Assembly (NCBI GenBank): GCA_017510245.1
Contig: JAFWNQ010000019.1
Location: forward strand, 1-35,464
Length of the DNA: 35,464 nt
Source: Clostridia bacterium
GTDB lineage: Bacteria > Bacillota > Clostridia > TANB77 > CAG-508
Reading direction: 5' to 3'
The translations under genes and the position numbers were made by a program. Below, piece after piece: positions 2,632 through 27,794 of the stretch. Position 1 is the stretch's first letter. Every line of letters begins with the position of its first letter. The notes beneath the pieces are model-generated. The model was not told where the DNA came from. It did no database searches and was given only the letters and a program-made list of their open reading frames with translations.

Positions 2632-5271
2632 TTATAAACTATCTATAAATTTATTAACATCTACAACTTTACCTTCGCTGTCTTCTTTGTTTTCTTCTTT
2701 TGTATTTGTATCTTTAATATTATCTAGAGCTTTAACTATTTTTGCAAATTTATTATCTACTTTCGTTTCAATTACTGCATCTTCAATTGCTTCTGCAATA
2801 TCACCAAAACTATATGTAATTTTGCCTTTTCTCTTTCTTCTTCTTCGTCTATTAGAATCTTCTTCGTCGTCTTCGTCTTCATCGTCATTTTCATTTCTTC
2901 TTCGTCTTCTTCTTTCTTCTCTAGTAGCCTCATCTTCATCTGCTGTACTTTCTGCATCTTCGACTTCAACGTCAGAATCAACTCCTATAGTTGTATCGAT
3001 ATCGCCATTGTCTTGTTGTGTTCTTTCTTCAGGTCTCCTTCTAGTTTCTTCTCTATCATCTTCTTGAGCCTGTCTTTCTCTTCTTTTTTGATCATCTTCC
3101 TCTTCAATTGTTATTTGTTGTAAGGTTACAATTGCTTTCTCCTTAATTGCCTGTCGTTCCTCTTGTGTAATATCTCCTGGTATTCCGTCAACTATTGAGG
3201 AAATTATATCTTCTACAGTTGAGTCATCAATTTCTCTTATATTTTTTCTTACCATATATTCGTGTATTTTGTATGTTAAGTAGTATTGATTAATATTATA
3301 TGTATTAACTTGTTTAATTTGATTGATAGCTTGTTGTCTCTCTTCAACTGTCAAAGTATCTAGTTGTTGTTCAATGAAATCTCTATCATGGTCTGCGCTT
3401 ATAATTGAATGTACAACATCATCTAAATGCTCATTTGTGTCTTTAGTTTTTTCAACAAACTTGACAGCTGCCCTTCTGCTTCCAACAATTCTACTTACTG
3501 AATCAGAAAAAATAGCTAATCCAGCTTTTGGTTCTTGAACCATAATTGGTACTAGAAATACTCCTTCCGAAATACCAAATCCAATATCTTTAATAATTTT
3601 AAATCCACTCTTGAATGTTCTCTTTCTTGTTGAACGCTTTAGTTTAAGTAAATGACGTGCATTGACACCTTCCATATCTTTTCTTCTAGCTATTTTTCTA
3701 ATCTTAAATGTTTCATTAATTTTTCCTCTAATCATACCTACTTCAATTGGATTGCCATCTGCATCTATATCTGGAGTAATAAACAAATCATCGATATCAT
3801 CAAGATGATCCGTAATGCTTTCCTCTATTGATTCTCTTATGCTTCCTCCGGTAGCATCATCAATTGCATCTGTTGCTTTAAGATATCCTTTATAAATTTC
3901 ATTTTTAGCAAATCTTCCTGCTTGTAAGCTAACCTCATCAACTGCACCAATGAATCTTTTAGTAGCATTATAAGTTAAGTAAACTCCAGATAATTGTTGT
4001 CTTGGTTTAAATGGTTTTAACATCTCTCTAATGTCACCTGGATTAAATTCAAATTTAAATATGTTCGCAAATAACGCATCTGCTGATAATATAAAGTTTA
4101 GGAAAAATAATGCAATAAAGAATCCATGTAGATCATCTAATGCAATTTTTAAGGCATTTTCTACAAATGCAACATAAAGCAATGCATGGATTGACTGTAT
4201 AAAAACTGATGTAAAAAATCTTTGTAACCAATTTGAAACCATATGGCTCCCTTTTCCCGAAGCACTTTCAATAGCATATCTTATAAGCACTAGCGGTGCT
4301 AATATAATTAGCATCATTACAGTAAATAATCTCTTAAAATATGCCCATATAAATCTTAGCCACATTAACAATAATGTTAAATAAAGAATTGTAGCTGGAA
4401 CACCAATTTTCCATGGAACCTCAAGTGCTCTTGTTTTTATTGTAGCATATATAGATCCTTCATCTTCATTTATTTTTTTAAATGTAGTTACAAATAATTC
4501 ATTGAAATATATAATCACATAAATTATAACATTAATCATTAATGTTAGTATCAAACTTTTTAGCCAGCCCAATAACATTTCTTTATAATGAGCTTTTTCA
4601 CTCGCAACTGCTGAAATTGCAATTCTAATTCCATAATATATAATAAGTATAACAAGTGATACCAAAGTTACATTTCTAAATGATACAAACCAAACCGCAA
4701 CTAGTTTTCTAATAATTCCTATTGGGCTATCTTCCTTTACTTCTTTTCCTCCAGCAGTATCAGAAAATACATTTATATCAAAAATAGGAACCTCATTAAA
4801 AATAATTTTTTCTATTGTATATGGCTCTATATCATCTGTTCCCTCTATATAATCATATAAAGTTTTATTCGAACCTAATTTTTTTACTATTTTTTTGTAT
4901 AATTCTGTAGCATTTTTGTTTTCATCTTTCTTTAATTCATCCTCTGTTTTGTAGTATTCTTTTGCACCTAATTCTTTTGCTTTTGAATTATCTGCATCTG
5001 TCTTTAATATCCATTTTTTTTCTTTTTCAGAAAGCATAGGATTCTGTAAATATTGAACTACATGTACTTCACCTTTATCATCATAGTATAAATAAAAATA
5101 CGAATCAACATCTATACCTTTATTATCAATAACTGCTACACCTATTCCCTTTTCTTTCTTTTGTTTTTTATCTACATAGTCAGTATTATAGGCAAAAACT
5201 TTACTATATGAAATTGATAGCATTGTTATAATAAATAATATACTTGCTATAAATCTTATTGTTTTATTCAT
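2632..5271 (-). CDS. VirB6/TrbL-like T4SS protein with long charged cytoplasmic tail
   Basis: 879 aa. A signal-like hydrophobic N-terminus (about 8-28) is followed by a roughly 130-residue charged, probably external region, then five or more membrane helices. The core carries the operon's VirB6 signature: WFVSFRNVTLVSLVILIIYY, then APLVLIRYAIES, then NWLQRFFTSVFIQ. It lacks the GDGR element present in the two sister proteins. The last 450 residues are hydrophilic. Near the end, a polyampholyte stretch alternates Arg runs with an Asp/Glu run (ENDDEDEDDEEDSNRRRRRK). A channel-platform role is inferred from paralogy. The large tail may dock cytoplasmic partners, but nothing in the sequence proves this. 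It lies between the second NlpC/P60 gene and the third VirB6-like gene, with gaps of only 13-30 bases. Confidence 0.72.
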   Translation of the reverse strand: MNKTIRFIASILFIITMLSISYSKVFAYNTDYVDKKQKKEKGIGVAVIDNKGIDVDSYFYLYYDDKGEVHVVQYLQNPMLSEKEKKWILKTDADNSKAKELGAKEYYKTEDELKKDENKNATELYKKIVKKLGSNKTLYDYIEGTDDIEPYTIEKIIFNEVPIFDINVFSDTAGGKEVKEDSPIGIIRKLVAVWFVSFRNVTLVSLVILIIYYGIRIAISAVASEKAHYKEMLLGWLKSLILTLMINVIIYVIIYFNELFVTTFKKINEDEGSIYATIKTRALEVPWKIGVPATILYLTLLLMWLRFIWAYFKRLFTVMMLIILAPLVLIRYAIESASGKGSHMVSNWLQRFFTSVFIQSIHALLYVAFVENALKIALDDLHGFFIALFFLNFILSADALFANIFKFEFNPGDIREMLKPFKPRQQLSGVYLTYNATKRFIGAVDEVSLQAGRFAKNEIYKGYLKATDAIDDATGGSIRESIEESITDHLDDIDDLFITPDIDADGNPIEVGMIRGKINETFKIRKIARRKDMEGVNARHLLKLKRSTRKRTFKSGFKIIKDIGFGISEGVFLVPIMVQEPKAGLAIFSDSVSRIVGSRRAAVKFVEKTKDTNEHLDDVVHSIISADHDRDFIEQQLDTLTVEERQQAINQIKQVNTYNINQYYLTYKIHEYMVRKNIREIDDSTVEDIISSIVDGIPGDITQEERQAIKEKAIVTLQQITIEEEDDQKRRERQAQEDDREETRRRPEERTQQDNGDIDTTIGVDSDVEVEDAESTADEDEATREERRRRRRNENDDEDEDDEEDSNRRRRRKRKGKITYSFGDIAEAIEDAVIETKVDNKFAKIVKALDNIKDTNTKEENKEDSEGKVVDVNKFIDSL

Positions 5272-5300: not shown

Positions 5301-6755
5301 TTATTCTCCTTCAATAAATTTTAAAGATGCATCAATTGCACTTTCAAATGTCATAGCCCATCCTAAAATTGATGTTTTTATTCCATTTGTTATCAATGCT
5401 ACTATAAAATCAACAAATTGAGAAAATAATGAGAATATCCATTCTCCAGCTTTTTTGGTTCCAGAATATGTCACTGTTTTAGGAGCTCCAGAAAACTGGA
5501 AATTCTGTTCATCTAGATTAACAGTAATATCATCAATTGGATAGTTAAATTCAGCATCCTGTCCTCCAGCACCGGCTCCTGCTAAATATGCGAAATTTGC
5601 ATTTCTTGCTGCTTCTTCAGTAATTCTTCCTACAATCCCTTGATAACCTCCATTCGAATTACAATCTTGTTCAGCTGAACCATAGAATAATCCTCCATAT
5701 TGGTCTCTATACATACCAATTGATTTTCCGTCACCAACATATATAGCTACGTGATGTCCCATTATTAAAACATCTCCTGGTTGACATTGACTAAGAGGTA
5801 CTGATACTTTTTCAAGTTCATCCCAATATACTCCCCATGGGTTATTGTTTGGTGGAACTACTGCACATGAAAAACGTTCTCCACCAATATTAACTGCATG
5901 GTGTAATGCAAAACTAACAAACCCAACACAGTCAAAAGCATAAGTAGTAGATTTATCACTATCTGAAACTGATTTTTCATAAGTAGGTCCTCTTACAGCA
6001 TCATCCCAGTTATATGTGCATTGACCTCTATGCTTATTATAAAAATCTATGCACCAAGCTGCTATAGTTTCTCCTGCTTCTTGTTGTGTGTGTCCAGTTC
6101 TAGGTGTAGTTTCTGAAGGTTTAAAAGAAGAACTTCCTGCTCCTACATTATCGGGATTTCCTACATAAATGCATGCATGCTGACTCAACTTTACAAGTAT
6201 ATCACCAGGCTTTAAATTATTTGGTGATGTTGTATATTCACCACCTCTCAAAGATTGAAACCCACAATTAGTAAAACTAACTTCCATAGTTGAAGGTGCA
6301 CCAATATCAACATTCTTTAAAGGTTCTTTGCTTAATTGATATCCTACTGCTCTTACTATCATTCCCGTAGATCCAGAGCAATCTGATGCACAAGGACTTT
6401 TTATTGCAGCAGGACTATAATTGTTAGCTTCTAATTGTTCAAGAAAAGTCATTCTCGATGGGTAAGTATTATTGTATCCAATATTGTCATTTCTAGCTGC
6501 TTCAACTGCTAGTTTTGCAATTCGGCTTGCAACAGTTGAATCAGGATGTCTTAAAACACAATCCCATCCCTTTGAATACCAATTTGTTAATACATACTCA
6601 TTTGCTTGGTCTCCCAATTCAGGATGTCCATTATTCCAGCTACAGTTACTAACCATTTGATTTCCATCAGCTTCAACTCTATTAATGTGAATTGTTCCCA
6701 TTAGTATCAGTATTATTAAATTTAAGCTTACTATTTTTTTTAGCTTATTTCTCAT
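5301..6755 (-). CDS. Two-module NlpC/P60-type cell-wall hydrolase with membrane tail
   Basis: 484 aa. A signal peptide (about 1-29) is followed by two NlpC/P60-like papain-fold modules in tandem. Module 1 has DCSG with Cys126 and a His in QHACIY (His193). Module 2 has FDCVGF with Cys276 and a His in GHHVAIYVGDG (His335). Both Cys-His pairs are intact, so both modules could be active. Such enzymes cut peptidoglycan stem peptides; T4SS operons of Gram-positives usually encode one to open the wall for the channel. Residues 406-483 form a tail with a hydrophobic segment (about 439-466) that is almost identical to the tail of the hydrolase at 8299-9168, differing at three positions. The enzyme is therefore probably membrane-held at the secretion complex. 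The ribosome binding site AAAGG is weakly spaced but acceptable. Confidence 0.8.
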   Translation of the reverse strand: MRNKLKKIVSLNLIILILMGTIHINRVEADGNQMVSNCSWNNGHPELGDQANEYVLTNWYSKGWDCVLRHPDSTVASRIAKLAVEAARNDNIGYNNTYPSRMTFLEQLEANNYSPAAIKSPCASDCSGSTGMIVRAVGYQLSKEPLKNVDIGAPSTMEVSFTNCGFQSLRGGEYTTSPNNLKPGDILVKLSQHACIYVGNPDNVGAGSSSFKPSETTPRTGHTQQEAGETIAAWCIDFYNKHRGQCTYNWDDAVRGPTYEKSVSDSDKSTTYAFDCVGFVSFALHHAVNIGGERFSCAVVPPNNNPWGVYWDELEKVSVPLSQCQPGDVLIMGHHVAIYVGDGKSIGMYRDQYGGLFYGSAEQDCNSNGGYQGIVGRITEEAARNANFAYLAGAGAGGQDAEFNYPIDDITVNLDEQNFQFSGAPKTVTYSGTKKAGEWIFSLFSQFVDFIVALITNGIKTSILGWAMTFESAIDASLKFIEGE

Positions 6756-6779
6756 TTAGATATTGCCTTTCATTTTACA

Positions 6780-8270
6780 CTATTCCATATCTATAGTATT
6801 TCCATCATAGTATATTGTTTTTCCTTCTACTTTTTCTATTTTACATTCGCCACTACTTGTTGCTATTTTCTTTTTTTCTTTTGTAATAGCATCATAATAA
6901 TATATTCCACTGTTTCTAACTCCATAAACAAATGCATTATCATTATATTCGTAAATGCTTGTTGGGCTATCTACATTAATTTCCGAGTCAAAATTTTCTT
7001 TGTTTTTCGAATAAATTTTATATTTCCCGTCTTTATATATTATTGTATAATTTTTTCCAAGTAAATATAGCGTATTAATTTCTTCTGGTCTCATATCAAA
7101 CTGAGGATTTCTTTTATTCTTATCCTCCATAACCCTGTACATTTCTTCTTCAAAAATTAAATTTGTGTCTAACTTTAATACAATTCCATTAGCTGTTTCC
7201 CTATTGTTTTTTATTTGGTCTATACTTATATCGTTCTTTATAAAACCTTTATAATTGCTATATATTTGAATTTGATTATGGTTTCCGATGCTAATTTTAA
7301 ATCCCCTATTTGGGTATGTTATATTTATTTGATTATTCTCATTTTCATATTTTGAATAATCGTTATATAAATCTGTTAATTCATTTATAAATGTCTTGTA
7401 ATCTCCATTATCAGAAAAATTCGTTAGTATCTTAGCAAATTTCTTATTTTCTTCTTCATCATATACATCTTTTTCGTATACAGATATTTCTCCATCATAG
7501 AAAAAAATGTAAAAATCTTTAGTTATATATCCAATTAATTCATAACTATTGTTCATATATATTGGGCTTCCAAGCTTATCCATTATTTGAGAATTCTCCA
7601 TATTAGTAGTAATTCCATCTACTATCTCTCCCCTATACTGTTTTGTAAAAACTAAATTGTATACTTTCGAATTAATTGTTCTAATCTTATATCCTTCATC
7701 AAAATAATAGTCATAGTTATCAAAAGAACTTTCTATAGTGTCATTTTTATTAATTGAGTTTTTCCTATTCCATTGAGTATTGATTAAATTATTCAATAAT
7801 TCTGCTTTAACACTAGTATCAATTTCATATTTTGACTCATCTATAGAATTTTGAATTACTTTTTGTTGTTTAATTTTTTTAAAATAGTTTTCTTCATTAT
7901 TAATTGTATATTTTATTTCATCATCATATTTTACCCTTATCACTAAGCTGTTTTTTTCATCTAATAATCGATAGCTACTTCCCTTAAATTTTGAAGCTGT
8001 AGAAGTAATTAATTTTTCATAATAGTTTTGATTTAATTGTCCATTCTCCTCTATAGGTTCCATTGAAATAAGAAGATAGATATCTTTTTTATAGCCAAGT
8101 TCCCCAGCTCTTTTCGTTTTATAATATGTAGAACCATATGATTCAATTATTCTTTTTATATTTAAAGATAGGTTTAATTCCACAATAATCTTAATGCCTA
8201 CAACTAATAATAAAATTAAACCTATTATTAATAAGATTTTTTTTTGATTCTTTTTGTTGTTTTTTTTCAC
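6780..8270 (-). CDS. Membrane-anchored extracellular protein, unknown family (copy 2)
   Basis: 496 aa from a GTG start, with GGAG six bases upstream. The N-terminus is MKKNNKKNQKK followed by one membrane helix (about 12-32). The rest is hydrophilic, Tyr/Asn/Lys-rich and presumably outside the cell. It is a clear paralog of 9204-10391: both have YYKTKRAGELGYKKDIYL-like starts, a DYYFDEGYKIRTINSKVYN block, then EIVDGITTNMENSQIMDKLG. The phrase around ITT(N/G)...I.(D/E)KLG.P loosely resembles the BamE/SmpA-type small-domain motif, which is weak evidence. The C-terminal 100 residues, rich in short Tyr/Lys strands, are absent from the shorter paralog. Each copy sits directly upstream of an NlpC/P60 gene, so a structural or regulatory partner of the hydrolase is a reasonable inference. 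The function is not recognised. Confidence 0.7.
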   Translation of the reverse strand: MKKNNKKNQKKILLIIGLILLLVVGIKIIVELNLSLNIKRIIESYGSTYYKTKRAGELGYKKDIYLLISMEPIEENGQLNQNYYEKLITSTASKFKGSSYRLLDEKNSLVIRVKYDDEIKYTINNEENYFKKIKQQKVIQNSIDESKYEIDTSVKAELLNNLINTQWNRKNSINKNDTIESSFDNYDYYFDEGYKIRTINSKVYNLVFTKQYRGEIVDGITTNMENSQIMDKLGSPIYMNNSYELIGYITKDFYIFFYDGEISVYEKDVYDEEENKKFAKILTNFSDNGDYKTFINELTDLYNDYSKYENENNQINITYPNRGFKISIGNHNQIQIYSNYKGFIKNDISIDQIKNNRETANGIVLKLDTNLIFEEEMYRVMEDKNKRNPQFDMRPEEINTLYLLGKNYTIIYKDGKYKIYSKNKENFDSEINVDSPTSIYEYNDNAFVYGVRNSGIYYYDAITKEKKKIATSSGECKIEKVEGKTIYYDGNTIDME

Positions 8271-8298
8271 AACATACTCCTTTTATAAACATTTCTAT

Positions 8299-9168
8299 TT
8301 AATTGTCGGCTCCTTCAATAAATTTTAAAGAAGAATCAATTGCCTTTTCAAAAGTCATTGCCCATCCTAAAATTGATGTTTTTATACCATTTGTTATCAG
8401 TGCAACTATGAAATCAACAAATTGTGAAAATAGTGAAAATATCCATTCTCCTGCCTTTTTTGTACCTGAATATGTAACTGTTTTTGGAGCACCTGCAAAT
8501 TGAAAATTTTGTTCATCCAAGTTCACTGTAATGTCATCTATTGGAAAAGCAGTAAAACCCTCAGCATCTCCAACATATATATTTGTATGATTTTGTTCAT
8601 TAAGAAGTACATCTCCAGGTTGCAAGTTAGCTGGATTGTCTGTATATTCTGCTCCACTTAACACTTGCCATCCATGAGCTTCAAAGTCTCCTCTCATGCT
8701 TCCTGTCCATCCCCACTCATCAATTGCTTTAAGTTCTTCATTATTTAAAATAAATCCAGCAGCTTTTACATTTGCACAAGTTGATCCAGAGCAATCTGCT
8801 TCACATGGAGTAGTAATTGCAGATGGATTATAGTTTACCCTTTCTAATTGTTCCCAATATGTATGCCTTTCTCCTTGATCATATCCAACCATATCATTAT
8901 TAGCTCCACTAACAGCTAGCTGTGCTATTGTCATTGCCGCATTAGAATCTTTGTACCTAAGCACATATTCTATTCCATAATTATACCAAGGCTTAACTGC
9001 ATACTCTCCACCTGTCTGATCTCCTGCTTGTCCTCCTGATATTCCTCCATTTTCATCTCCACCGCAGTTACTAACATTAGTTGCCCCAGCTACACTTAAG
9101 CAAAAACTGTTTATTAAAATAATTGAAATCAAAATAGTTATTGCTATTTTCCTTAAACATTTATTCAT
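8299..9168 (-). CDS. Single-module NlpC/P60-type cell-wall hydrolase with membrane tail
   Basis: About 289 aa. Of two nearby ATGs, the one at 9168 is eight bases from GAAAGG and is preferred over 9174. A signal peptide is followed by one NlpC/P60-like module with DCSG (Cys128 counted from the longer start) and His196 in NHTNIYVG. It is the counterpart of module 1 of the 484-aa hydrolase: both share YVLxxWYxxGxxxVLR, a TPCEADCSGST-like catalytic block and PGDxL. The second module is missing. The C-terminal tail begins FPIDDITVNLDEQNFQF and is nearly identical to that of the larger enzyme. It lies downstream of the paralog of 6780-8270, which shows that a gene pair was duplicated. A likely job is wall opening at the secretion apparatus. 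Confidence 0.8.
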   Translation of the reverse strand: MNKCLRKIAITILISIILINSFCLSVAGATNVSNCGGDENGGISGGQAGDQTGGEYAVKPWYNYGIEYVLRYKDSNAAMTIAQLAVSGANNDMVGYDQGERHTYWEQLERVNYNPSAITTPCEADCSGSTCANVKAAGFILNNEELKAIDEWGWTGSMRGDFEAHGWQVLSGAEYTDNPANLQPGDVLLNEQNHTNIYVGDAEGFTAFPIDDITVNLDEQNFQFAGAPKTVTYSGTKKAGEWIFSLFSQFVDFIVALITNGIKTSILGWAMTFEKAIDSSLKFIEGADN

Positions 9169-9203
9169 TAACATTACCTTTCATGTATCCTATATTAGTC
9201 GAC

Positions 9204-10391
9204 TTATTTATTAGATTCTTTTTTTATTAAACTCTTTCCATCATAATCTTTAATAATTCTATCCATCTCACTGATGAAAACAAAATCTTTTGATTCATAA
9301 CTCATTATTGATGGTAAAGAATAGTTTCCTTTCTTCACACCTTCTATAGTTATATCTTTAGATACTTTTCCACTATAATTGTTATATATTTTTATTCCAC
9401 TTTTTTTACCATTCTCAAAGCTAACCTTAAACCCTCTTAATGGATAATCAATTTCTATTTTACTTCCTTCATTAGTATAACTTGTATAATCAGAATATAA
9501 GTCAGTTAATGAACTTAAAAATACATTGTAATCGTTGTTATCTATTAGAGTAGAAACTAATTTAGAAAACTCATCATTCTTTTTTTCATCAAATTCTTCT
9601 ATTCTGTATATCGAAATTTCTCCATTGCAGAAGAAGATATAGTATTCTTGTGTTAAGTATCCTATAAGTATATTGGCATCTCTATTTTCGAATGAAGGCT
9701 TTCCCAATTTTTCTCTAATTTCTGCATTTGTCAGTCCTGTTGTTATTCCTTCAATTATTTCTCCTCTATAATTTTTATCAAATATAATATTATATATTTT
9801 TAGATTAACCGTTTTTATTCTATATCCTTCATCTTTGTAGTAGTCATATCCTTCTTTATTTTCTTCAGCTGTTCCAAGTTCTTCTTTTATATTACTTCTA
9901 ATCCAATTGTTATTTATTATTTTTTTTAGTACTTCCGATTTATTATTAAATCTATGATTTGAATAATTCTTATCCATTTTTATCTGCTGATTTTCATAGT
10001 AATTATTATCACCATCGATTGTGTATTTAGCTTCTCCATTTTCAAATCTTACTCTTATTGTTCTTTCAATGGCTAAATCATGCTTGTCCATAATAATAAA
10101 ATTCTCTTTTTTTAACAAAGTACCCACAGCTTTTATAATCTGTTCATAGTAATACTGATTAGATATTCCATCACTATCAACTGGTGGATAAGGGATTTTT
10201 ACATATATCTCCTTTTCAAAACCTTCTTCCTTAGAATTCTTAACTTCATAAAATGTACATTCATAATAATCAAATAATTCATTATATTGCATAATTGTTT
10301 TTTTGTTATATTCATATATTCCAACAATAAATAATAATATAATAATCACTATAACAACAAAGATTATTTTTTTTATCCTTTTCTTTTTCAC
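9204..10391 (-). CDS. Membrane-anchored extracellular protein, unknown family (copy 1)
   Basis: 395 aa from a GTG start. The nearest Shine-Dalgarno, GGAGG, overlaps the stop of the preceding gene and is rather far away (14 bases), so translation may be coupled. There is one N-terminal membrane helix (about 8-28) and a Lys/Tyr/Asn-rich outer domain. It is similar over most of its length to 6780-8270, including the blocks around YRIKTVNLKIYNIIFDKNYR, GEIIEGITTGLTNAEIREKL and FFCNGEISIYR, but it ends about 100 residues sooner. It is not a recognised enzyme. It is placed between a VirB6-like gene and an NlpC/P60 gene, and its paralog precedes the other NlpC/P60 gene. A partner of the hydrolase or an extracellular T4SS component is inferred. 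Confidence 0.7.
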   Translation of the reverse strand: MKKKRIKKIIFVVIVIIILLFIVGIYEYNKKTIMQYNELFDYYECTFYEVKNSKEEGFEKEIYVKIPYPPVDSDGISNQYYYEQIIKAVGTLLKKENFIIMDKHDLAIERTIRVRFENGEAKYTIDGDNNYYENQQIKMDKNYSNHRFNNKSEVLKKIINNNWIRSNIKEELGTAEENKEGYDYYKDEGYRIKTVNLKIYNIIFDKNYRGEIIEGITTGLTNAEIREKLGKPSFENRDANILIGYLTQEYYIFFCNGEISIYRIEEFDEKKNDEFSKLVSTLIDNNDYNVFLSSLTDLYSDYTSYTNEGSKIEIDYPLRGFKVSFENGKKSGIKIYNNYSGKVSKDITIEGVKKGNYSLPSIMSYESKDFVFISEMDRIIKDYDGKSLIKKESNK

Positions 10392-10402
10392 AATTACTGT
10401 TA

Positions 10403-11572
10403 TTAACCTCCACCCAATTTTATATCTGACAATCCTCTTTGCATTCTTGGTTTTATCTTCATAACACTCTTAAATATCTTTTCTCCATTTGACAAAGTTG
10501 CTAGAAATACTAATCCCAAAATAGGGTTTCTAATTAAGATTTCTCCCATTGAATAAATCATTATCAAATATATTAGTAAATGCATTGGTTGTAAAAAAAC
10601 TGTAATTATAAATTCTTGCATCCAATTATTAAAACCTTGCGCACGTCCATCTCCCACCTTGTCAATAGGATATGTTAGACAAACTAATGGAGATATAATA
10701 ATATAAAAAGCAGTTCTTAAAAGTCTTCCAATATATATTGCAAAGAACTTAACTTGATAATATGAAAACATTATGTATAATACTGTATAAAAAATAGTAG
10801 TACTTGTTTGATGAGCTCTATCTAAATTCTTATCAATATTATTCATTATTCTTTCTTCTAAAGTTTCAGCAGCTCCAGTCTTCTCTATTGTGTCTTTAAG
10901 TTTTTCTACCATAAAATCTGATGCACTAATTATGAAAACTATAAAGAATTGTATTACCAATAGGATTATTACTGCTTCCAACCATGACATCAACATCTTT
11001 TTATATTCTGACTTATCTTTTGAGACAGTTGCAATTGCTAATCTCATAGCTACATATATTAAAGTTATTACACTTCCAACTAGAGCTAAATTTCTAACTC
11101 CAACAAACCAACCTGCAGTATTAGTTCCTATCTTTTCTAATAATGATTTTGAGTACTTATCCATTCCATTTGAATCAATAAGATATTTTATATTAAACAA
11201 ATCATATTCACCTGTTAGCAATTTTTCTATTGTAAATGCTTTTTTTCCATCACCTACAATATTGGATAATGTGTAATTAACTATTTGAGGTAAAGCTAAC
11301 AATAATCTACAAACTAATTTTTCTAAAAATGGCATACTAGCGGCCTGTGTTTGTAAATCAACAGAAGCACTCTCTTGCCTTGTTTCACCATTAGTAGAAG
11401 TTGTTCCTTCTTCAAACAATTGATTAAAATTCTCTAATTCGACTCCATTTTGTATCTCTGTTAAGCTTTCATCTTTTCCAAAAATATTAGAAGAAGCATT
11501 TACTAAGAGACTATTGCTTAAAAATAATATTAAAATTATTATTATCAAAACACTTGTTACTTTTCTTCTCAT
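10403..11572 (-). CDS. VirB6/TrbL-like T4SS channel protein, short form
   Basis: 389 aa. A signal-like helix (about 5-25), a roughly 60-residue linker and then membrane helices run to the end. It carries the shared signature WFVGVRNLALVGSVITLIYV (155-174), SPLVCLTYPIDKVGDGRAQG (294-313) and QEFIITVFLQPMHLLIYL. Unlike its two sisters it has no large tail, so it is close to a minimal VirB6/TrbL core. It lies directly downstream of the VirB4 ATPase gene (28-base gap), the usual VirB4-VirB6 order in Gram-positive conjugation operons. The role as inner-membrane channel platform is inferred from family and context. Confidence 0.78.
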   Translation of the reverse strand: MRRKVTSVLIIIILILFLSNSLLVNASSNIFGKDESLTEIQNGVELENFNQLFEEGTTSTNGETRQESASVDLQTQAASMPFLEKLVCRLLLALPQIVNYTLSNIVGDGKKAFTIEKLLTGEYDLFNIKYLIDSNGMDKYSKSLLEKIGTNTAGWFVGVRNLALVGSVITLIYVAMRLAIATVSKDKSEYKKMLMSWLEAVIILLVIQFFIVFIISASDFMVEKLKDTIEKTGAAETLEERIMNNIDKNLDRAHQTSTTIFYTVLYIMFSYYQVKFFAIYIGRLLRTAFYIIISPLVCLTYPIDKVGDGRAQGFNNWMQEFIITVFLQPMHLLIYLIMIYSMGEILIRNPILGLVFLATLSNGEKIFKSVMKIKPRMQRGLSDIKLGGG

Positions 11573-11600
11573 TAAATGCTCCTTTTTTTTATATATTCAT

Positions 11601-13550
11601 TTAACCATTAGTTTCGTTAATATTTGTATTAACAAATTCTAATTCTTTCTTTGTAGGTCTAATCTCAATTATTGCAGTTTGTTCTCCAACTTTAAATAAT
11701 CCTTGTCCTCTTGTACATGTCGTCAAGAATGACGCCTCCCCTTCACTTAATTTAAATACTTCTTTAATATATTGGATTTCTGATTTGTCTTGTGCTAAGA
11801 ATAGTTTTGTATCTGAAGATGTCAAAACAGCCTGAACATCAGACATTTCATAGAAGTCCTGGAATCTCTGAGAAACAACAGCAAGTGATACGTTTCTCTT
11901 TCTAGCACGTCTTGCCATCTTATTTAAGAAATCTACTGCTTCTGGAAATGGAAGCAACATCCATGCTTCATCAACAAGTACTCTTCTCTTTCTAGCCTTT
12001 GCCCTATCTTCACTATTTTTCTTAACAAATTTTTCCCAAATCCATGACAATAAAATCTGTTGTGCTAAAGGTCTTGCAAATCTTTCCTCTAATTGTGAGA
12101 TATCAAGGTTAATGAACGTTGTCCCCTCTAGCAAGTCAAATGTTGATTGTCCATCAAAGTATGACATTTGTCCATTATACTCTCTTACATATTGTCTCAT
12201 AACTTTTGAAAGATAACTATAATGCATTCTATAGTCTGGATTTCTGTTTTGACTTCCATTTAATATTATTCTATGATACCAAGAACCAATTGTTGGCATT
12301 GGTTTTTTATTTTTACCTAAGAAGTCTCCTTGAATTCTTCCACCTCTATTTATAGCATATAAACTGTTTACATCATTAGTAATACCTAAACTTGCATATT
12401 CTTCTGCAACAGCTTCAGCAATTATTTGCTTAGTAAGCTCATTAACATCCTCTGTTCTTGTACTACCTCTTGCCATTGTTAACAAAACTTGTGTTACATC
12501 TTCAATCTTATTTTCAACATTTAATGAAACCATTTCTTTTCCTGTGATTTCATCTTTTGTTATTTCTGGTTCAATATCGAAAGGATTTATTATAGTATTA
12601 GAATTTGGAGAAATTACAACATTAATTCCACCCAAAGCTTCAGCAACTACTCCATACTCTCCCTCGGCGTCTAGAGCCATACTTTCAATTCCCATTAGTA
12701 CAGCAGATCTTGCAATAAGAGTCTTTATTGTAACACCTTTACCAGCACCAGATTTACCGAATACAACCATATTATAGTTGCTAAGTGTAGAGCTAAAGTT
12801 ATCATATAATATAGGTAATCCAGTTTGTCTATTAAATCCTATTGGTATTCCATCTTCATGTCCTACCTCAGAATTAATAAATGGAAAGACTGTTCCCATT
12901 GATCTACGGTCAAATGTATGTTTTTTTCCTAATTTATCTTCATTAAAAGGTAAATTAGATTTAAATGCATCCTCCTGCATTGCCCATGCTGTTTTTATTC
13001 CCGTTAGAGTCTTTGACATTTCAGAAGATAATAATTCACTTTTTCTATCTAATTCTTCCATATTGTATTCAAATAATGTACAAAATATTGATGCTTCAAA
13101 TAACTTGTCTAGTCCACTAGCAATAGCATCTCTAAGCTCCTCTGCTTCTTGCCTTTTTTGTGCAAGTAAACTCTCACGGTTAATATTTCCTCTGTCAGCT
13201 GCAACAAGTCTTTCTGACTCTAAGTCATTAATAGTCCTATTCAATTCATTTTGAGATCTTGCTTCACTTACTGGAGTTATAAAAACAGATACATTTATAT
13301 CTCCAAATGTATACATCCCCCTCAATAATAAAGGGAAAGTACACATTCTAGGAAGTGATGATACTGTAAAAGTTCTAGAGTATTTGCTTGTATTTGCTAC
13401 TATCTCCAAATGATTTGTGCTTGTTGCATCGATTCCTGATGGTGCTATTAAATCTTTTATATCTTTTTGATTTTTCTTTAGTAATCCTCTGTTATCAATT
13501 TTTGGACTACTTGAAATTCTAACATCTTGTTCGGCATTATTATTCTTCAT
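11601..13550 (-). CDS. VirB4/TraE-type T4SS ATPase
   Basis: 649 aa, a usual length for Gram-positive VirB4 proteins. The N-terminal half (about 45-200) is the VirB4 accessory domain. The C-terminal half is the ATPase, with Walker A GKSGAGKG (265-272), Walker B VLVDEAWML (524-532) and the downstream VSQRFQD motif (559-565). It powers assembly and substrate transport of the T4SS at the membrane. The ribosome binding site GAAAGG lies upstream of ATG 13550. It follows the TraC-like N-domain gene by 60 bases and is followed by a VirB6-like gene. This is the most securely identified gene of the T4SS. No VirB11-like ATPase is seen, as is normal for Gram-positive systems. Confidence 0.93.
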   Translation of the reverse strand: MKNNNAEQDVRISSSPKIDNRGLLKKNQKDIKDLIAPSGIDATSTNHLEIVANTSKYSRTFTVSSLPRMCTFPLLLRGMYTFGDINVSVFITPVSEARSQNELNRTINDLESERLVAADRGNINRESLLAQKRQEAEELRDAIASGLDKLFEASIFCTLFEYNMEELDRKSELLSSEMSKTLTGIKTAWAMQEDAFKSNLPFNEDKLGKKHTFDRRSMGTVFPFINSEVGHEDGIPIGFNRQTGLPILYDNFSSTLSNYNMVVFGKSGAGKGVTIKTLIARSAVLMGIESMALDAEGEYGVVAEALGGINVVISPNSNTIINPFDIEPEITKDEITGKEMVSLNVENKIEDVTQVLLTMARGSTRTEDVNELTKQIIAEAVAEEYASLGITNDVNSLYAINRGGRIQGDFLGKNKKPMPTIGSWYHRIILNGSQNRNPDYRMHYSYLSKVMRQYVREYNGQMSYFDGQSTFDLLEGTTFINLDISQLEERFARPLAQQILLSWIWEKFVKKNSEDRAKARKRRVLVDEAWMLLPFPEAVDFLNKMARRARKRNVSLAVVSQRFQDFYEMSDVQAVLTSSDTKLFLAQDKSEIQYIKEVFKLSEGEASFLTTCTRGQGLFKVGEQTAIIEIRPTKKELEFVNTNINETNG

Positions 13551-13610
13551 CTTAAAATCCTTTCTGAGGTATTCAATGATTTGAAATACACTATTTTCAA
13601 ATTTTCCTCG

Positions 13611-14801
13611 TTAGTTATTCGATTGTCTTCTAACCACTCTTCTACTTTGAGTTTTTTCTTTTAACATCTCATCCACATCTGCCTGATCAATTTGTCTCTT
13701 TGTTTCTTCATATAGTGGTTTACTCAATTCTCCTTTATAGTCTTCAACCATCTCTTTTGCTCTAGCTTTTATTCTTTTTATTCTTTCTTGTCTTGTTATT
13801 TCATCTGCTTTTACAATACTCTTTGTTGCAACCTTTTGTGCATCTTGCTCAATCTTCATTTCTAGTCTACGTTTCTTTTCTTCTAACACATCCCTTGCTG
13901 TAGAATATAATCTATCATATTCTGCATTCAAAGCATCTTTTAATGTGTATTTTTCAGACTCATCTCTGTTGTATGCAACATATAGTAATTCCGCTAATTC
14001 TTCTGAACTTAGAACTTTTCCATTTACTTCAGCAGAAGCCAATGCTCTAATTAGAGTTTGACACCTAGTATATAATTCTGAGAATGCAATATCATTAATC
14101 TCTTCTTTTGAATACTTGCTTAAGTCTCCATATTCGCTTGGGAAATATGAAACTACAATATATGTTTTTTGTTGTAAAATGTTTCTACTTCCACTAATTC
14201 TCATTGTGTAATCTTCGATTGATTTTCCGTATTCAAATATATTCTGTTTTCTACTTTTTTCTCTTTGAAGTGCCCTTGCAGATTCCTCATCTCCATTATT
14301 TAAGGCTGCCTGTATTCTTGTATCTGTTTTAAAAATCTGATCTTTTATTTCGTCTGTTCTTTCTACATATTTATTAACTAAAGCTCTAAGATTTAGTGTT
14401 CTGGTTTGAATATATAATTGTATAGGAAATCTTAATGTATTTAGCATAGCAATAAATCCAGATTCAACTGCATTTTTTTCATCTTCTGATAGCAAATCAT
14501 AATTTATTCCTTTACATTCTATTACCATAACATGATGGTTGCCATTTTTTCTTACAATCATATTATCTGTAATATAATCAAATTCCATAAATTCATATAT
14601 AGAATTAATAGTTTCACCAGATCTTGTAATCAAGTTTTCTCGATTTTTTGTTTCTGGTTCTTGTTGTTGAATTTGTTGCTTTTTAGCATCATTTTTACTA
14701 CTCTTTATTCTAACTATAATTATTATTGCAACTCCACCCAACACTGCAATGATAAAAAGAACTACTATAAGAATTATATTTAATAATTGTACTGTATCCA
14801 T
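13611..14801 (-). CDS. TraC-like VirB4 N-domain protein, membrane anchored
   Basis: 396 aa. One N-terminal helix (about 7-30) is followed by a domain with the look of the VirB4/TraC N-terminal region: NMIVRKNGNHHVMVIECKGI, then NYDLLSEDEKNAVESGF, then LNTLRFPIQLYIQTRTLNL. It has no Walker A and ends in a long Lys/Arg/Glu-rich helical stretch (about 280-390), so it is not an ATPase. The start codon shares one base with the stop of the PrgI-like gene (TAATG), so the two are translationally coupled. The next gene is a complete VirB4, so this is an extra, separate protein rather than a split half. Stand-alone proteins of this kind are known to me from Gram-positive and candidate-phyla T4SS loci. 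The role is inferred as a VirB4 partner. Confidence 0.7.
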   Translation of the reverse strand: MDTVQLLNIILIVVLFIIAVLGGVAIIIIVRIKSSKNDAKKQQIQQQEPETKNRENLITRSGETINSIYEFMEFDYITDNMIVRKNGNHHVMVIECKGINYDLLSEDEKNAVESGFIAMLNTLRFPIQLYIQTRTLNLRALVNKYVERTDEIKDQIFKTDTRIQAALNNGDEESARALQREKSRKQNIFEYGKSIEDYTMRISGSRNILQQKTYIVVSYFPSEYGDLSKYSKEEINDIAFSELYTRCQTLIRALASAEVNGKVLSSEELAELLYVAYNRDESEKYTLKDALNAEYDRLYSTARDVLEEKKRRLEMKIEQDAQKVATKSIVKADEITRQERIKRIKARAKEMVEDYKGELSKPLYEETKRQIDQADVDEMLKEKTQSRRVVRRQSNN

Positions 14802-15232
14802 TATTTATTCTCCTCCTTTGTACTATCAGAATTAGTTTTCCCTGTTATAAAATTAACTAAAGGTGATGTAACACTTGTGTCGGCATAACTAGGTTCTTTT
14901 CTTGGAATACTATATGTATATACTTTTTTATTTTTCTTAAATTGCATATAATGTACTATGATTTCATCTATCGAATCACCACCAACATTTTTAACTAATT
15001 TAGAAGTTCCACTTGTGGGCATTTTTATTGTTCCAATTCCATATCCTATTAGTGCAAATATTGCTAAAACAAGTATTCCAGCTGTCTTAAGCTGTAAAAG
15101 TGTAAATATTAAATAAGCAAAAAATCCAATAAAACCACCAACCGCAGTATATATAAGTGACTTTCCAGTAAAAATATATAGTATTCTGTTTTCTCCCTTT
15201 AATTTATTGCTTGGTATATAATAACTTCCCAT
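14801..15232 (-). CDS. PrgI-family (VirB3-like) T4SS protein
   Basis: 143 aa. A short N-terminus (YIPSNKLKGENRILYIFTGK) is followed by two adjacent membrane helices (about 28-50 and 52-70) and a soluble C-terminal part with an IVHYMQFKKNKKVYTYS segment. Size, helix pairing and position between pilin and VirB4 genes match the PrgI family, the Gram-positive VirB3 counterpart that helps anchor VirB4. A good GGAGG site precedes the ATG. The stop overlaps the next start by one base. Confidence 0.82.
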   Translation of the reverse strand: MGSYYIPSNKLKGENRILYIFTGKSLIYTAVGGFIGFFAYLIFTLLQLKTAGILVLAIFALIGYGIGTIKMPTSGTSKLVKNVGGDSIDEIIVHYMQFKKNKKVYTYSIPRKEPSYADTSVTSPLVNFITGKTNSDSTKEENK

Positions 15233-15249: not shown

Positions 15250-15642
15250 TTATTTAGTAGCAGTTGTAATTATCTTATAAACAATATTGAATACTCCAGC
15301 AGAACTAAATATTAGAACAGCAGAAACCACATACCATACCAGCTTCTGTTTCATATTAGCTCTTTCGTCAGCTCCTGAAATCATAAATTTAACACCCATT
15401 ATTGAGCCTACAATTAGCAAAACCATAATTGCTATTCCAAACAAAATATTTCCAACTGCTTGTAAATCTTTTTCTGCTCCTGCCTGTGAAATCTTTCCTT
15501 GCCCACCTTTACTAATAAATCCTTGTGCTTTCGACCAAATTGAGCTACCACTTAGACCACTTGCATATACATTTTGTTTTAATACTATTATAGCAAATAT
15601 TATCATAGCACTAATTATTATTACTTTTTTTAAAACTTGCAT
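15250..15642 (-). CDS. VirB2/TrbC-like pilin (third of three)
   Basis: 130 aa. A signal peptide ends near VYASG, a 40-residue Gly/Gln/Lys region follows, then two hydrophobic helices separated by a short charged loop (SGADERANMKQKLVWYV). This two-helix, small-loop layout is that of TrbC/VirB2 pilins. The loop pattern KFM.(S/A)...(D/E)...(I/M)K.. is shared with the two upstream pilin-like genes. Ribosome binding site GAGAGGAG. It is encoded 17 bases before the PrgI-like gene. Confidence 0.78.
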   Translation of the reverse strand: MQVLKKVIIISAMIIFAIIVLKQNVYASGLSGSSIWSKAQGFISKGGQGKISQAGAEKDLQAVGNILFGIAIMVLLIVGSIMGVKFMISGADERANMKQKLVWYVVSAVLIFSSAGVFNIVYKIITTATK

Positions 15643-15679: not shown

Positions 15680-16066
15680 CTATGAAACCAAATGCATATT
15701 GTATATTATTTTTAATATTGTCCTTATTGTAAATACCATAACTGCACCAGCTACTGTTACTACCATTTGTTTTTTTATCTCAGCTTTTCCTTCAGGAGCT
15801 GCTGCCATAAACTGTACACCTTTTATTAAAAGTATTATTAATGCAGCACCATAACATACATAAGCTACTACTCCAAAAATAACCCCAGAGACTTTGTTTA
15901 TTTTTGCATCAGGTGTGAAGTGTGCATTACTTGCAACCTGAACATATTTCACATCAGTTCCATAATTGCTTTGAGCATTAGTTATTTGAATCTCTTTTGC
16001 CATTACAGTTTTATTTACTACAAGAATTGCCAAAATCATAATTAATGTTAAACAAATTTTTTTCAC
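15680..16066 (-). CDS. VirB2/TrbC-like pilin (second of three)
   Basis: 128 aa from a GTG at 16066. An ATG further upstream (16111) has no ribosome binding site and lies only about 15 bases after the -10 box, while the GTG has AAAGAGGT at good spacing and begins a textbook signal peptide (KKICLTLIMILAILVV). After a roughly 45-residue exported segment come two helices with the loop KGVQFMAAAPEGKAEIKKQM, nearly the same loop as in the first pilin (KFMTASPDGKAEIKKS). It is a structural pilus or channel-surface subunit by family inference. Confidence 0.75.
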   Translation of the reverse strand: MKKICLTLIMILAILVVNKTVMAKEIQITNAQSNYGTDVKYVQVASNAHFTPDAKINKVSGVIFGVVAYVCYGAALIILLIKGVQFMAAAPEGKAEIKKQMVVTVAGAVMVFTIRTILKIIYNMHLVS

Positions 16067-16125
16067 TTTTTTACCTCTTTCATATTCTAAATTTCTCATA
16101 TTTTTGTACATATTTATTCCATATT

Positions 16126-16272: not shown

Positions 16273-16629
16273 TTAGCCTGTTTTTACTGCCTGATTTCCA
16301 AGATTTTGGATAACCTTTAATATTGTACCAGCTGCAAATACTAAAATTGCACCAACAACATAAATTACTGCTGATTTCTTAATTTCAGCCTTTCCATCTG
16401 GTGAAGCTGTCATGAATTTTACACCTAATACAACAAGTAAAATAACTGCTGCTGCATAGCATATAAATGAAACTACACCTATAACGTTCTTTACAGTAGG
16501 ACTTATTGCACTAATTCCACCAGTTCCTGCCTCTGGAATTGAAAGAGCAAATACAACATTTATAGCCATAAGTATTGTAGCAATTATCATTAAAGCAGTT
16601 CCAATTTTTACTATTTTCTTACTATTCAT
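16273..16629 (-). CDS. VirB2/TrbC-like pilin (first of three, own transcript)
   Basis: 118 aa. A signal helix (about 10-28) is followed by a short Gly/Pro/Ser-containing linker, then two hydrophobic helices around the loop KFMTASPDGKAEIKKSAVIY. The fold pattern is VirB2/TrbC and it is a close relative of the second pilin. It has a near-perfect promoter, an AAAGGAGG ribosome binding site and an immediate terminator. It could therefore be made separately and in larger amounts than the rest of the apparatus, as suits a major pilin. Its sequence alone does not prove polymerisation. Confidence 0.78.
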   Translation of the reverse strand: MNSKKIVKIGTALMIIATILMAINVVFALSIPEAGTGGISAISPTVKNVIGVVSFICYAAAVILLVVLGVKFMTASPDGKAEIKKSAVIYVVGAILVFAAGTILKVIQNLGNQAVKTG

Positions 16630-17156: not shown

Positions 17157-18413
17157 TTATTTTACAATTGATAATATAGCCTCATCTTTCTTAAGCATTT
17201 CTTTTCTTATTTTATTTACATACTCTATGTTCATATTACTTATTTCATCTATATAGTCCAAGCTATTTATTCCTCTTATACTGTCTGCTAAAAACATTCT
17301 GCCAACATGTTCTACATCATCATAATTTGTTACAAATTCTCCATAAATTCTCTTTTTACTTCTTTCAAAATCTTCAATTGATATTTCTTCATTCTGCAGT
17401 TTATCAATAATAGTATTATATACTTCCTCTGGTTTTCTTGATTCACCTGAAATTAATACATGTGAATATTGATTAGAAAACTCAAAATCACAATCCATCT
17501 CTCTCATTAATAATCCGCTATTATATAAATCTTGATAGGTTTTTGAGCACTTTCCTAAAATACTATTGAAAACTATTCTAATAGCTATATCTTTTTTTAT
17601 CTGGTTTTCATTTTGTAAGAAATCTCTATACCCTATCATGAATAACGGCATATTTACATTCATATGTTTTTCAATATAATTTTTATTAATTGTTGGTTCA
17701 TATTCAGGATAAATTCTTTTTATCTCAGCCATTTTTTCACGTGGTTTTAATCTCTTTTTTATCTCTTCAACAATAGTATTTGGTTCAAAATCTCCACTAA
17801 TGCACATTATCATATTTGAAGGATGATAAAATGTATTATAACAGCTATACAAAGTTTCCTTTGTAATATGGCTTATCGATTCAACTGTTCCAGCAACATC
17901 TATTGTAATCGGATTATTCTTATATAAGCAATTCATAGCATTAATATACAATTTCCATATAGGTTCATCATCATATCGCTGTATTTCTTGTTCAATTATT
18001 CCTCTTTCTTTATTAACATTTTCATCTGTAAAATATGGGCTTTGAACATAATCCATTAATTCATCTAAACCTTCATAAAAATTATCTGTACATGCAAATA
18101 GATATGCTGTATGATCGTTTGTTGTATAAGCATTTGCATCAAGTCCTAGTGCCATTAAAGTATATAGACTATCTACTCCACTCTCTTGTTCAAACATTTT
18201 ATGTTCTAAATAATGGGCCACTCCATCTGGCACTTGAATTTCTTTACCTGTTTTAGGTTCTATAAAATGATTATCATTTGATCCAAATTTAGTTCCCCAA
18301 ATTATATATTTTTTCTTGGTATTATCCTTTGGAATAATTATGATTTTCATTCCATTTTCAAGTGTTTCAATATATACCTTTTCATCAATTTTTTTATTTT
18401 CAATAACTTGCAT
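17157..18413 (-). CDS. ymfH: M16 zinc peptidase, YmfH type (catalytic partner)
   Basis: 418 aa. It has the inverted zinc motif HYLEH (His67, Glu70, His71) and the downstream Glu in GIIEQEIQRYDDEP (about 141-143), as in active M16 peptidases. Length and the surrounding sequence (GVAHYLEHKMFE) match the Firmicutes YmfH group. It is the downstream member of a two-gene pair with the YmfF-like protein (98-base gap). M16B enzymes work as pairs of an active and an inactive subunit forming a chamber. The physiological substrate is not known from the sequence; the family has been linked by annotation to EF-P modification gene sets. Ribosome binding site AAAGGAAAG. Confidence 0.87.
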   Translation of the reverse strand: MQVIENKKIDEKVYIETLENGMKIIIIPKDNTKKKYIIWGTKFGSNDNHFIEPKTGKEIQVPDGVAHYLEHKMFEQESGVDSLYTLMALGLDANAYTTNDHTAYLFACTDNFYEGLDELMDYVQSPYFTDENVNKERGIIEQEIQRYDDEPIWKLYINAMNCLYKNNPITIDVAGTVESISHITKETLYSCYNTFYHPSNMIMCISGDFEPNTIVEEIKKRLKPREKMAEIKRIYPEYEPTINKNYIEKHMNVNMPLFMIGYRDFLQNENQIKKDIAIRIVFNSILGKCSKTYQDLYNSGLLMREMDCDFEFSNQYSHVLISGESRKPEEVYNTIIDKLQNEEISIEDFERSKKRIYGEFVTNYDDVEHVGRMFLADSIRGINSLDYIDEISNMNIEYVNKIRKEMLKKDEAILSIVK

Positions 18414-18511
18414 TTTTAATAACTTTCCTTTCTATAGGCACGCTAGGCATTTTTCAAACTATACCTCTCTACTATAAAATCCATTACGCACTTTTATATT
18501 AGTAATTCTCT

Positions 18512-19711
18512 CTATTTTTCTAAATAGTATATTGTATTAATTGATATTTCCTTTCCTACTTCAATCACTTTTTCTTTACTAACTTTATTTAGTTTATCAA
18601 TATATTCGTCAACAGTTAGATTTTCTCCATATAATCTTTGGTCATAGTTAAAAGCTATCATATCTTCTTGTGATTCTTTTATAAGATTCAAAGAAGATAT
18701 AATTAGTTGTTTTGCTTTATCAAATTCATCGTCAGTAACTTTTCCATTTTTAATATCTTCTATCTGCTCTTTAATTATCTTTAAAGTCTTATCGTAGTTT
18801 TGTAATTCGATTCCAGTAACAATAAATATAGCATCTTTTCTTCTAATATATTTTGATCCAGCCGAGTAAGCCAAACTTGCTTTTTCTCTAACGTTTTGGA
18901 ACAGTTTTGAATTAGCCCCTCCCCCTAATACTGCGTTATATAGGCTAACAGCAAATCTGTTATCATTTGGTGTACTCATTCCTATAATTAGTTTTCCTTG
19001 AGTAACATCAGCTTTCTCATTAACTATTCTTTCTTCTTGTTTTGGTAATGGCTCATTTTCCTTTATATTTACTACACTATGATTGTCTAAAGAATCTGGA
19101 ATTTCAACTTTATCTGCATCCACACCATTTATCACTATATATATTTCTGATTCATTAACCATTTTTTTATAATAATCAAACAATTCTTTTTCATCTATTT
19201 CTTGCAAGTCTATCAAATTACCATATTTATATATACCATATGGTTCATTTTCAAACATCTCTTCAATACATCTATTTAATGAATATAGAGATTTATTATC
19301 TTTTCTTGACTCTATCTTTTTCTTTAAATTCTCCTTTTCTTGTTCAACATATTCTTTACAAAAACCTTCATCAACAGTTAAAGGATTAAATATAATCTCA
19401 TTTATTAAATCCATAGCTTTTTGAGTTAAGTTTTCATCTATAGGTAGAAACTTATCACAAACTGTTTCTATATAGAACTTAAGGATACAATTATCTCCTG
19501 TCTTGTCTATACCACAATTAAAAAATGCACCATACATGTTTTCTAATTGTTTGCCTATTTCAACTTGGTTTGGATATTTATTTGTCCCTCTTCTCAATAC
19601 AGCTGGAAGAAGTGCATTCATAGTTATTGTTTCTTTCTTTAAAGGCATTGTCAAAAAAATAGCAATTTCATTAGTTTTAAACTTATTGCTTTTCATTCTT
19701 TCAATTTTCAT
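18512..19711 (-). CDS. ymfF: M16 peptidase-like protein, YmfF type (non-catalytic partner)
   Basis: 399 aa. M16 fold with the family phrases LLPAVLRRGT...YGAFFNCG near the N-terminus and GGGANSKLFQNVREKASLAY in the middle, but no HxxEH motif. It is therefore the inactive subunit expected to pair with the zinc-containing YmfH. AAAAGGAGGAGA precedes the ATG. A possible -10 (TATAAT) lies about 35 bases upstream without a good -35. The gene starts directly downstream of the duplicated hairpin elements, whose transcripts would read into it. Confidence 0.86.
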   Translation of the reverse strand: MKIERMKSNKFKTNEIAIFLTMPLKKETITMNALLPAVLRRGTNKYPNQVEIGKQLENMYGAFFNCGIDKTGDNCILKFYIETVCDKFLPIDENLTQKAMDLINEIIFNPLTVDEGFCKEYVEQEKENLKKKIESRKDNKSLYSLNRCIEEMFENEPYGIYKYGNLIDLQEIDEKELFDYYKKMVNESEIYIVINGVDADKVEIPDSLDNHSVVNIKENEPLPKQEERIVNEKADVTQGKLIIGMSTPNDNRFAVSLYNAVLGGGANSKLFQNVREKASLAYSAGSKYIRRKDAIFIVTGIELQNYDKTLKIIKEQIEDIKNGKVTDDEFDKAKQLIISSLNLIKESQEDMIAFNYDQRLYGENLTVDEYIDKLNKVSKEKVIEVGKEISINTIYYLEK

Positions 19712-19830
19712 TTGTCTCCTCCTTTTTATTTATTATTAGCAATTATAGACTTTTTATTGAATATATTATTTTTTAATTTTTCTCTATGCTAGTTGTCATT
19801 TATTCACTCTCTTCTTTTATCATTTTTGCT

Positions 19831-19953
19831 GTTGAATAAGAATCCGGATTTTTGCTAGGCAAAAAAGGTTTTAAAGGCAAGGGCGCGTATATTTTATACG
19901 TAACCGCGTTTAAAAATTTTTTTAACGACGCAAAAAACGAATTATTATTCAAC
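19831..19953. repeat. Long hairpin element, copy A
   Basis: 123 bases, ends GTTGAATAA and TTATTCAAC. The two halves pair along nearly the whole length with mismatches. A 31-base core (19877-19907) begins GCAAGGGCGCGTA and ends TACGTAACCGC around a short T loop. The core is shared with copies B and C. No T run follows, so it is not a normal terminator, and it does not code for protein. Confidence 0.85.
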
Positions 19954-19996
19954 TATTTATTTGTCATTATTCACTCTCTTCTTTGTCATTTTTGCT

Positions 19997-20119
19997 GTTG
20001 AATAAGAATCCGGATTTTTGCTAGGCAAAAAAGGTTTTAAAGGCAAGGGCGCGTATATTTTATACGTAACCGCGTTTAAAAATTTTTTTAACGACGCAAA
20101 AAACGAATTATTATTCAAC
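19997..20119. repeat. Long hairpin element, copy B
   Basis: Identical over 123 bases to copy A, 166 bases downstream. Its right end is five bases from the T-run side of the rpsU terminator, so it follows rpsU in the direction of transcription. Confidence 0.85.
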
Positions 20120-20124
20120 TATAT

Positions 20125-20169
20125 AAAAAAACAAAAAGGAACGTCATATATACCATATCCAACGTTCCT
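20125..20169 (-). terminator. Rho-independent terminator of rpsU
   Basis: On the minus strand AGGAACGT (20162-20169) pairs with ACGTTCCT (20137-20144), followed by TTTTGTTTTTTT. It begins 16 bases after the rpsU stop. Confidence 0.85.
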
Positions 20170-27674: not shown

Positions 27675-27794
27675 TTAAATTGTGAAGCTGAGTGCTTTTT
27701 ATGAATATTTGGAAGCAAGGGCGCGTACGTTTTGTACGTAACCGCTTTCAAATTGATTAAAAAGTGCTCAGAGCAAAATCTAAGCCCAATTTAA
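27675..27794. repeat. Long hairpin element, copy C
   Basis: Outer arms TTAAATTG (27675-27682) and CAATTTAA (27787-27794) and inner arms around GAGTGCTTTTT / AAAAAGTGCTC pair around a 31-base core (27715-27745). The core matches copies A and B at 28 of 31 bases, in the same orientation. The arms share no sequence with A and B. Its right end overlaps the dnaB stop codon. There is no T run at either end. Confidence 0.8.

Follow-up and report, generated by a model that had tools for sequence, protein, structure and literature searches.

Why should two predicted cell-wall hydrolases whose catalytic domains have drifted far apart end in almost the same 79 residues? The question is raised by a 35,464-nucleotide stretch of DNA from a gut Clostridia bacterium (contig JAFWNQ010000019.1 of assembly GCA_017510245.1), referred to here as the window. 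It corresponds to contig C19 of a 1.24-Mb draft genome (G000), a metagenome-assembled genome (MAG) that is 82% complete. The two hydrolases, A and B, are surrounded by VirB4, VirB6-like and pilin genes, the setting of a type IV secretion system (T4SS) operon. The shared tail is probably a detached N-terminal extension of VirB6-2, one of the VirB6-like proteins of this chromosomal, Gram-positive-type T4SS. The arrangement would then be a split VirB1–VirB6 protein whose hydrolase-bearing copies are held to a shared partner.

Constraint within genomes and drift between species

The tails of A and B differ at 4 of 79 residues, 3 of which fall within the first 78, and at 35 of 237 bases, of which about 29.5 are synonymous changes. 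The by-eye counts of the first-pass annotation (3 of 78 residues; about 30 DNA differences, almost all silent) were accurate. At the DNA level the tails form a repeat (5306-5541 and 8310-8545) of 86% identity. By Nei–Gojobori (NG86) counts over the 79 codons, the synonymous distance dS is 1.06, the nonsynonymous distance dN 0.030 and their ratio 0.029. The ELLD domains of the same two proteins are 46% identical, with dS 1.33, dN 0.53 and dN/dS 0.40. The comparison of tail and catalytic module that the annotation proposed therefore bears out its view that the catalytic parts are far more diverged. The dS values of tail and ELLD are similar and near-saturated in both. The PF25309 and PF00877 matches lie far above the cut-off and predict peptidoglycan-hydrolase-type catalytic domains. 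Calling both proteins NlpC/P60 hydrolases was right for A, which combines PF25309 with NlpC/P60, and wrong for B, which has PF25309 only. Both have signal-peptide-like N-termini, a reading made by eye with no signal-peptide predictor run.

A search with the tail alone, also proposed at first pass, led to the N-terminal side of VirB6-2 in relatives. The genome also encodes, on its contig C5, a third hydrolase, paralog C (locus L032, 11702-13198). The tail of C is 91% identical to that of A. The gene lies outside the operon on a contig without a VirB6-like gene, so copy C would have to act in trans. Its NlpC/P60 and ELLD domains stand in the opposite order to those of A, and its ELLD motif is altered (DSICSLS, against DCSGS in A and B). 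Tail dN/dS is 0.02-0.05 among the window copies. Within genomes it is 0.02-0.07 across two lineages, the second being the congener G010, whose locus L041 encodes two proteins with heads 32% identical and tails that differ at 5 of 84 residues.

Only copies that share a genome show this constraint; from species to species the tail is fluid. It is 30-46% identical to the tails of congeners whose VirB4 is 80-84% identical, so tails do vary freely in most relatives, an outcome that the first-pass annotation said would refute its view. In less saturated comparisons, sister species usually give a tail dN/dS of 0.15-0.5; a few pairs depart from this range. Averaged across loci, tail identity is 31%, VirB6-2 core identity 40% and VirB4 identity 78%. 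Pooled nonsynonymous to synonymous counts in the tail are 8.5:45.5 within genomes; for species pairs in the window's genus they are 162.5:78.5 (Fisher p 9e-13), and over all tested pairs 252:199 (p 5e-9).

The tail as a VirB6-2 extension in relatives

The tail alignment has no conserved patch and was unusable as a locus query, so VirB4 was taken instead. It fetched 80 loci of uncultured gut Clostridia, to which loci from a whole-genome search were added. In tail-bearing loci the usual gene order is VirB4, VirB6-1, an unnamed protein of about 500 residues, hydrolase-tail plus VirB6-2, and VirB6-3. A hidden Markov model (HMM) of the tail finds it on the N-terminal side of VirB6-2, the middle of the three VirB6-like proteins, in 33 loci and as a separate open reading frame (ORF) in 19; no locus has both forms. 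The tail is thus homologous to the VirB6-2 extension and is supplied either in cis or in trans. Fused tails are often preceded by a hydrolase domain, and a separate tail ORF usually lies just upstream of a tail-less VirB6. The heads vary, being NlpC/P60, ELLD, M23 or none. In clean split loci VirB6-2 lies 3-56 bp downstream of the tail ORF and opens with a signal-peptide-like segment. On the VirB4 tree, eight cis/trans switches are counted with ambiguous rows and at least five without them. Split loci L051, L052, L055 and L124 were set aside as possible frameshifts or odd arrangements; L108 was also omitted from the second count, though a signal-like segment of its own opens its VirB6-2. In a survey of the order (385 genomes), the tail was found in the window's family only.

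For L065, a fused relative, AlphaFold2 (residues 30-597, 25 sequences) models the main part of the tail as one 47-residue helix (confidence score pLDDT about 80-89) behind a disordered linker. The core of the model superposes on residues 2-272 of R388 TrwI/VirB6 (Z 11.2, root-mean-square deviation 3.8, 233 residues aligned); among helical proteins such a Z is moderate, but gene context agrees with the VirB6 identity. The alignment begins at model residue 268. The tail occupies 191-266 and has no counterpart in TrwI, and on this model it is an extension placed before the minimal VirB6 fold and not part of it. The helix is hydrophobic and amphipathic (mean H 0.3-0.6, moment 0.2-0.5). Because the core gets a signal sequence when split, its start appears to lie outside; with the head exported as well, an even number of membrane crossings is expected of the tail. 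A single long amphipathic helix would fit a peripheral or re-entrant position better than a spanning one. The first-pass description of the tail as membrane-spanning is accordingly doubtful, since both ends of this single helix should lie outside the membrane.

The unnamed gene upstream of the hydrolase follows the tail closely. Gene and tail occur together in 50 loci, tail only in 2, gene only in 1 and neither in 34 (Fisher 1e-20, not corrected for kinship), so that 50 of 52 tail-bearing loci have a homolog of the partner protein. The gene is duplicated alongside each hydrolase. Relative L061 has neither partner gene nor tail hydrolase; the two thus behave as one unit, which may be dispensable. 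The window's paired genes are 37-43% identical, no closer to each other than to copies from other species, and their tree does not place WIN_A as the sister of WIN_B and WIN_C. This suggests that the duplications are old; alternatively, the duplicates may have evolved faster. A model of the partner protein (pLDDT 89) predicts a transmembrane helix, an alpha/beta part, a large extracytoplasmic region and propeller-like C-terminal strands. In a fold search only the final ~100 residues matched propeller-like structures, and did so weakly; no Pfam or NCBIfam family matched above the cut-off.

A proposed shared partner and its rivals

The most likely history would run as follows. (i) The ancestral polypeptide would have comprised a signal peptide, in some cases a wall hydrolase, the tail and the VirB6 core. 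(ii) In the window species the gene would have been split between tail and core, the core having its own export signal. (iii) The hydrolase-tail half would have been duplicated with its upstream partner gene. (iv) The tail would re-associate with the VirB6-2 platform, directly or through tail–tail oligomers on the VirB6 ring. (v) Different wall hydrolases would thereby be fixed at the channel and open the cell wall there. An older homogenising exchange between copies may have contributed. If every copy in a cell has to fit one and the same partner, the tails would remain near-identical to each other even as tail and partner diverge from species to species. One such shared partner, whether VirB6-2 or the remaining tails, is the best explanation of the freeze within genomes. 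The association of hydrolase and VirB6 is well supported by repeated fusion; from it we infer physical docking, local wall opening and the shared partner as the cause of the freeze. The docking to a VirB6-like protein suggested at first pass thus survives as a tie made by fusions, and not as a universally frozen surface.

Several observations weigh against this reading. The multi-copy freeze rests on two genomes, and the near-saturated silent sites of the window leave the age of its copies uncertain. The closest T4SS relative, L061 (VirB4 90-93% identical), keeps VirB6-2 without tail, hydrolase module or partner gene, and no tail is found elsewhere in its genome; the module may therefore be dispensable, or the MAG incomplete. 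In a clade where VirB6-2 tails are headless, with no hydrolase, between-species tail dN/dS is 0.03-0.08. Finally, tail divergence tracks VirB6-2 no better than VirB6-3 (partial Mantel test controlled for VirB4, rho 0.19 versus 0.20), so that the identity of the partner rests on fusions and gene order.

Gene conversion between copies, with selection only in the background, could also produce the likeness. The tail is not conserved between species, and the divergence of heads and partner genes inside the genome matches that between species, so that something would have reset the tails after duplication. In G010 the silent-site difference pS is 0.37 for the tails (confidence interval 0.23-0.52), whereas the neighbouring partner genes have 0.62 (0.56-0.68); this suggests that the tails there were exchanged after duplication. 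The window tails, however, differ at pS 0.57-0.62, where the genome's codon usage gives a saturation expectation of 0.69 (standard deviation 0.09). Their differences are evenly spread, and no identical run exceeds the length expected by chance. Recent conversion in the window, a possibility raised by the first-pass annotation, is ruled out by these near-saturated silent sites and the lack of an unbroken tract. Any exchange must be old, with strong purifying selection since, and conversion as the main explanation is rather unlikely. The annotation's own version, a docking surface under universal constraint that purifying selection holds fixed, draws on the low dN/dS among window copies and on a G-x-P and W/F/G pattern that recurs across the tail family. 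Strong purifying selection holds among copies in one genome; as a universal freeze it is contradicted by the low identity to congeners, the sister-species dN/dS and a mean identity below those of the VirB6-2 core and VirB4, and this version is very improbable.

The remaining rivals concern what the tail does. It might be merely a generic membrane anchor for a wall hydrolase: the helix is anchor-like in being hydrophobic and amphipathic, and Gram-positive VirB1 proteins are membrane-anchored (PMC12857230). A generic anchor would need neither near-identity among copies nor alternation between fusion and adjacency with the VirB6 core, and we consider this account improbable. Similarly doubtful is a proposal in which the tails oligomerise as a ring atop a VirB6-2 pentamer, at the position of VirB5 in R388, and present mixed, interchangeable heads at the channel mouth or pilus tip; tail–tail compatibility would then freeze the tails. 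The tail could also be a C-terminal T4SS secretion signal resembling XVIPCD, with A, B and C as exported effectors and the adjacent unnamed gene as immunity protein, which would suit one C-terminal module on different heads with a partner gene beside each. The signal-peptide-like N-termini, as read by eye, would point instead to Sec export, and in relatives the module is internal, on the N-terminal side of VirB6. An immunity role fits poorly with a partner gene present also where VirB6-2 has no hydrolase head. Effector and immunity functions were rejected as the principal explanation on this last ground, and we regard them as extremely unlikely.

Operon setting and known systems

Table 1. Features of the T4SS operon in the window.
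Feature	Position	Strand	Description
VirB6-3 (VirB6-like)	213-2618	minus	801 amino acids (aa)
VirB6-2 (VirB6-like)	2632-5271	minus	Core at residues 151-443; own signal-peptide-like start; no tail
Hydrolase A	5301-6755	minus	484 aa; real ORF; signal-peptide-like start, ELLD PF25309 (3e-40, ~6156-6617), NlpC/P60 (8e-12, ~5718-5945), tail
Hydrolase A tail	5304-5540	minus	79 aa, PIDDITV...EGE
Unnamed ~500-aa protein	6780-8270	minus	Partner of hydrolase A
Hydrolase B	8299-9174	minus	291 aa; real ORF; signal-peptide-like start, ELLD PF25309 (2e-51, ~8566-9075), tail
Hydrolase B tail	8308-8544	minus	79 aa, 4 residues unlike tail A
Second copy of unnamed protein	9204-10391	minus	Partner of hydrolase B; 395 aa, without C-terminal part
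VirB6-1 (VirB6-like)	10403-11572	minus	389 aa
VirB4-like ATPase	11601-13550	minus	TraG P-loop
PrgI/VirB3-like small membrane protein	14801-15232	minus	Weak match, below cut-off
VirB2-like pilin	15250-15642	minus	
VirB2-like pilin	15680-16111	minus	
VirB2-like pilin	16273-16629	minus	

A core HMM is common to all three VirB6-like proteins of the window (table 1). A pair of M16 peptidase genes (17157-19711) lies directly upstream of the operon, and the same arrangement recurs in 33 related loci, across genera. With these neighbours the site looks fixed, and the T4SS is probably chromosomal and vertically inherited and may not be a mobile element. A tblastn search of plasmids and phages with the tail gave no match. 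Only one coupling-protein-like match, below the cut-off, was found in the 82%-complete MAG. In L061 (5013-9004), VirB6-1 is followed directly by VirB6-2, the hydrolase and partner genes being missing. After VirB6-3, L061 encodes a protein of ~1100 aa (11537-14968) with, by eye, a second wall-hydrolase-like domain; the window ends before this gene. Elsewhere in the window, a 144-nt direct repeat (19816-19959 and 19982-20125) is 99% identical, has a 45-nt relative at 27708-27752 and gave no Rfam match.

How single-membrane bacteria bring wall hydrolases to their T4SS channels is, to our knowledge, poorly defined. The repeated fusion and fission of hydrolase and VirB6-like protein point to VirB6 as the recruiting subunit and name a small, testable module. 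Identity among the copies of a genome, combined with fluidity between species, is a computable signature by which shared docking modules might be sought elsewhere. No report of a hydrolase–VirB6 (VirB1–VirB6) fusion was found in the open-access literature, most subscription journals lying outside the search.

PF25309 (ELLD) and NlpC/P60 (PF00877) are the families of the catalytic heads in A, B and C, and neither includes the tail; comparisons of the tail with PDB, Pfam and PHROGs gave nothing above chance. Effectors of the X-T4SS share the C-terminal XVIPCD module among diverse hydrolase heads, as the present proteins share their tail. Unlike those effectors, the proteins described here have a signal-peptide-like start, and in relatives their module belongs to a machine protein, VirB6. 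The predicted core fold matches R388 TrwI, and the lengths seen here (700-1500 aa) are similar to those of the extended VirB6 of MPF_FA systems. In contrast to both, an additional helix module lies on the N-terminal side here; it occurs with and without a hydrolase head and is able to split off as a protein of its own, and each operon has three VirB6-like proteins. Gram-positive VirB1 proteins are described as multi-domain, anchored in the membrane and distinct from VirB6; like A and B, PrgK (pCF10), TraG (pIP501) and Orf14 (Tn916) are extracytoplasmic, membrane-associated wall hydrolases with modular catalytic domains encoded in T4SS operons (PMC12857230). Whereas those proteins are described as standing alone, in the present case the anchor-like module forms an N-terminal extension of VirB6, covalently fused to it in many relatives.

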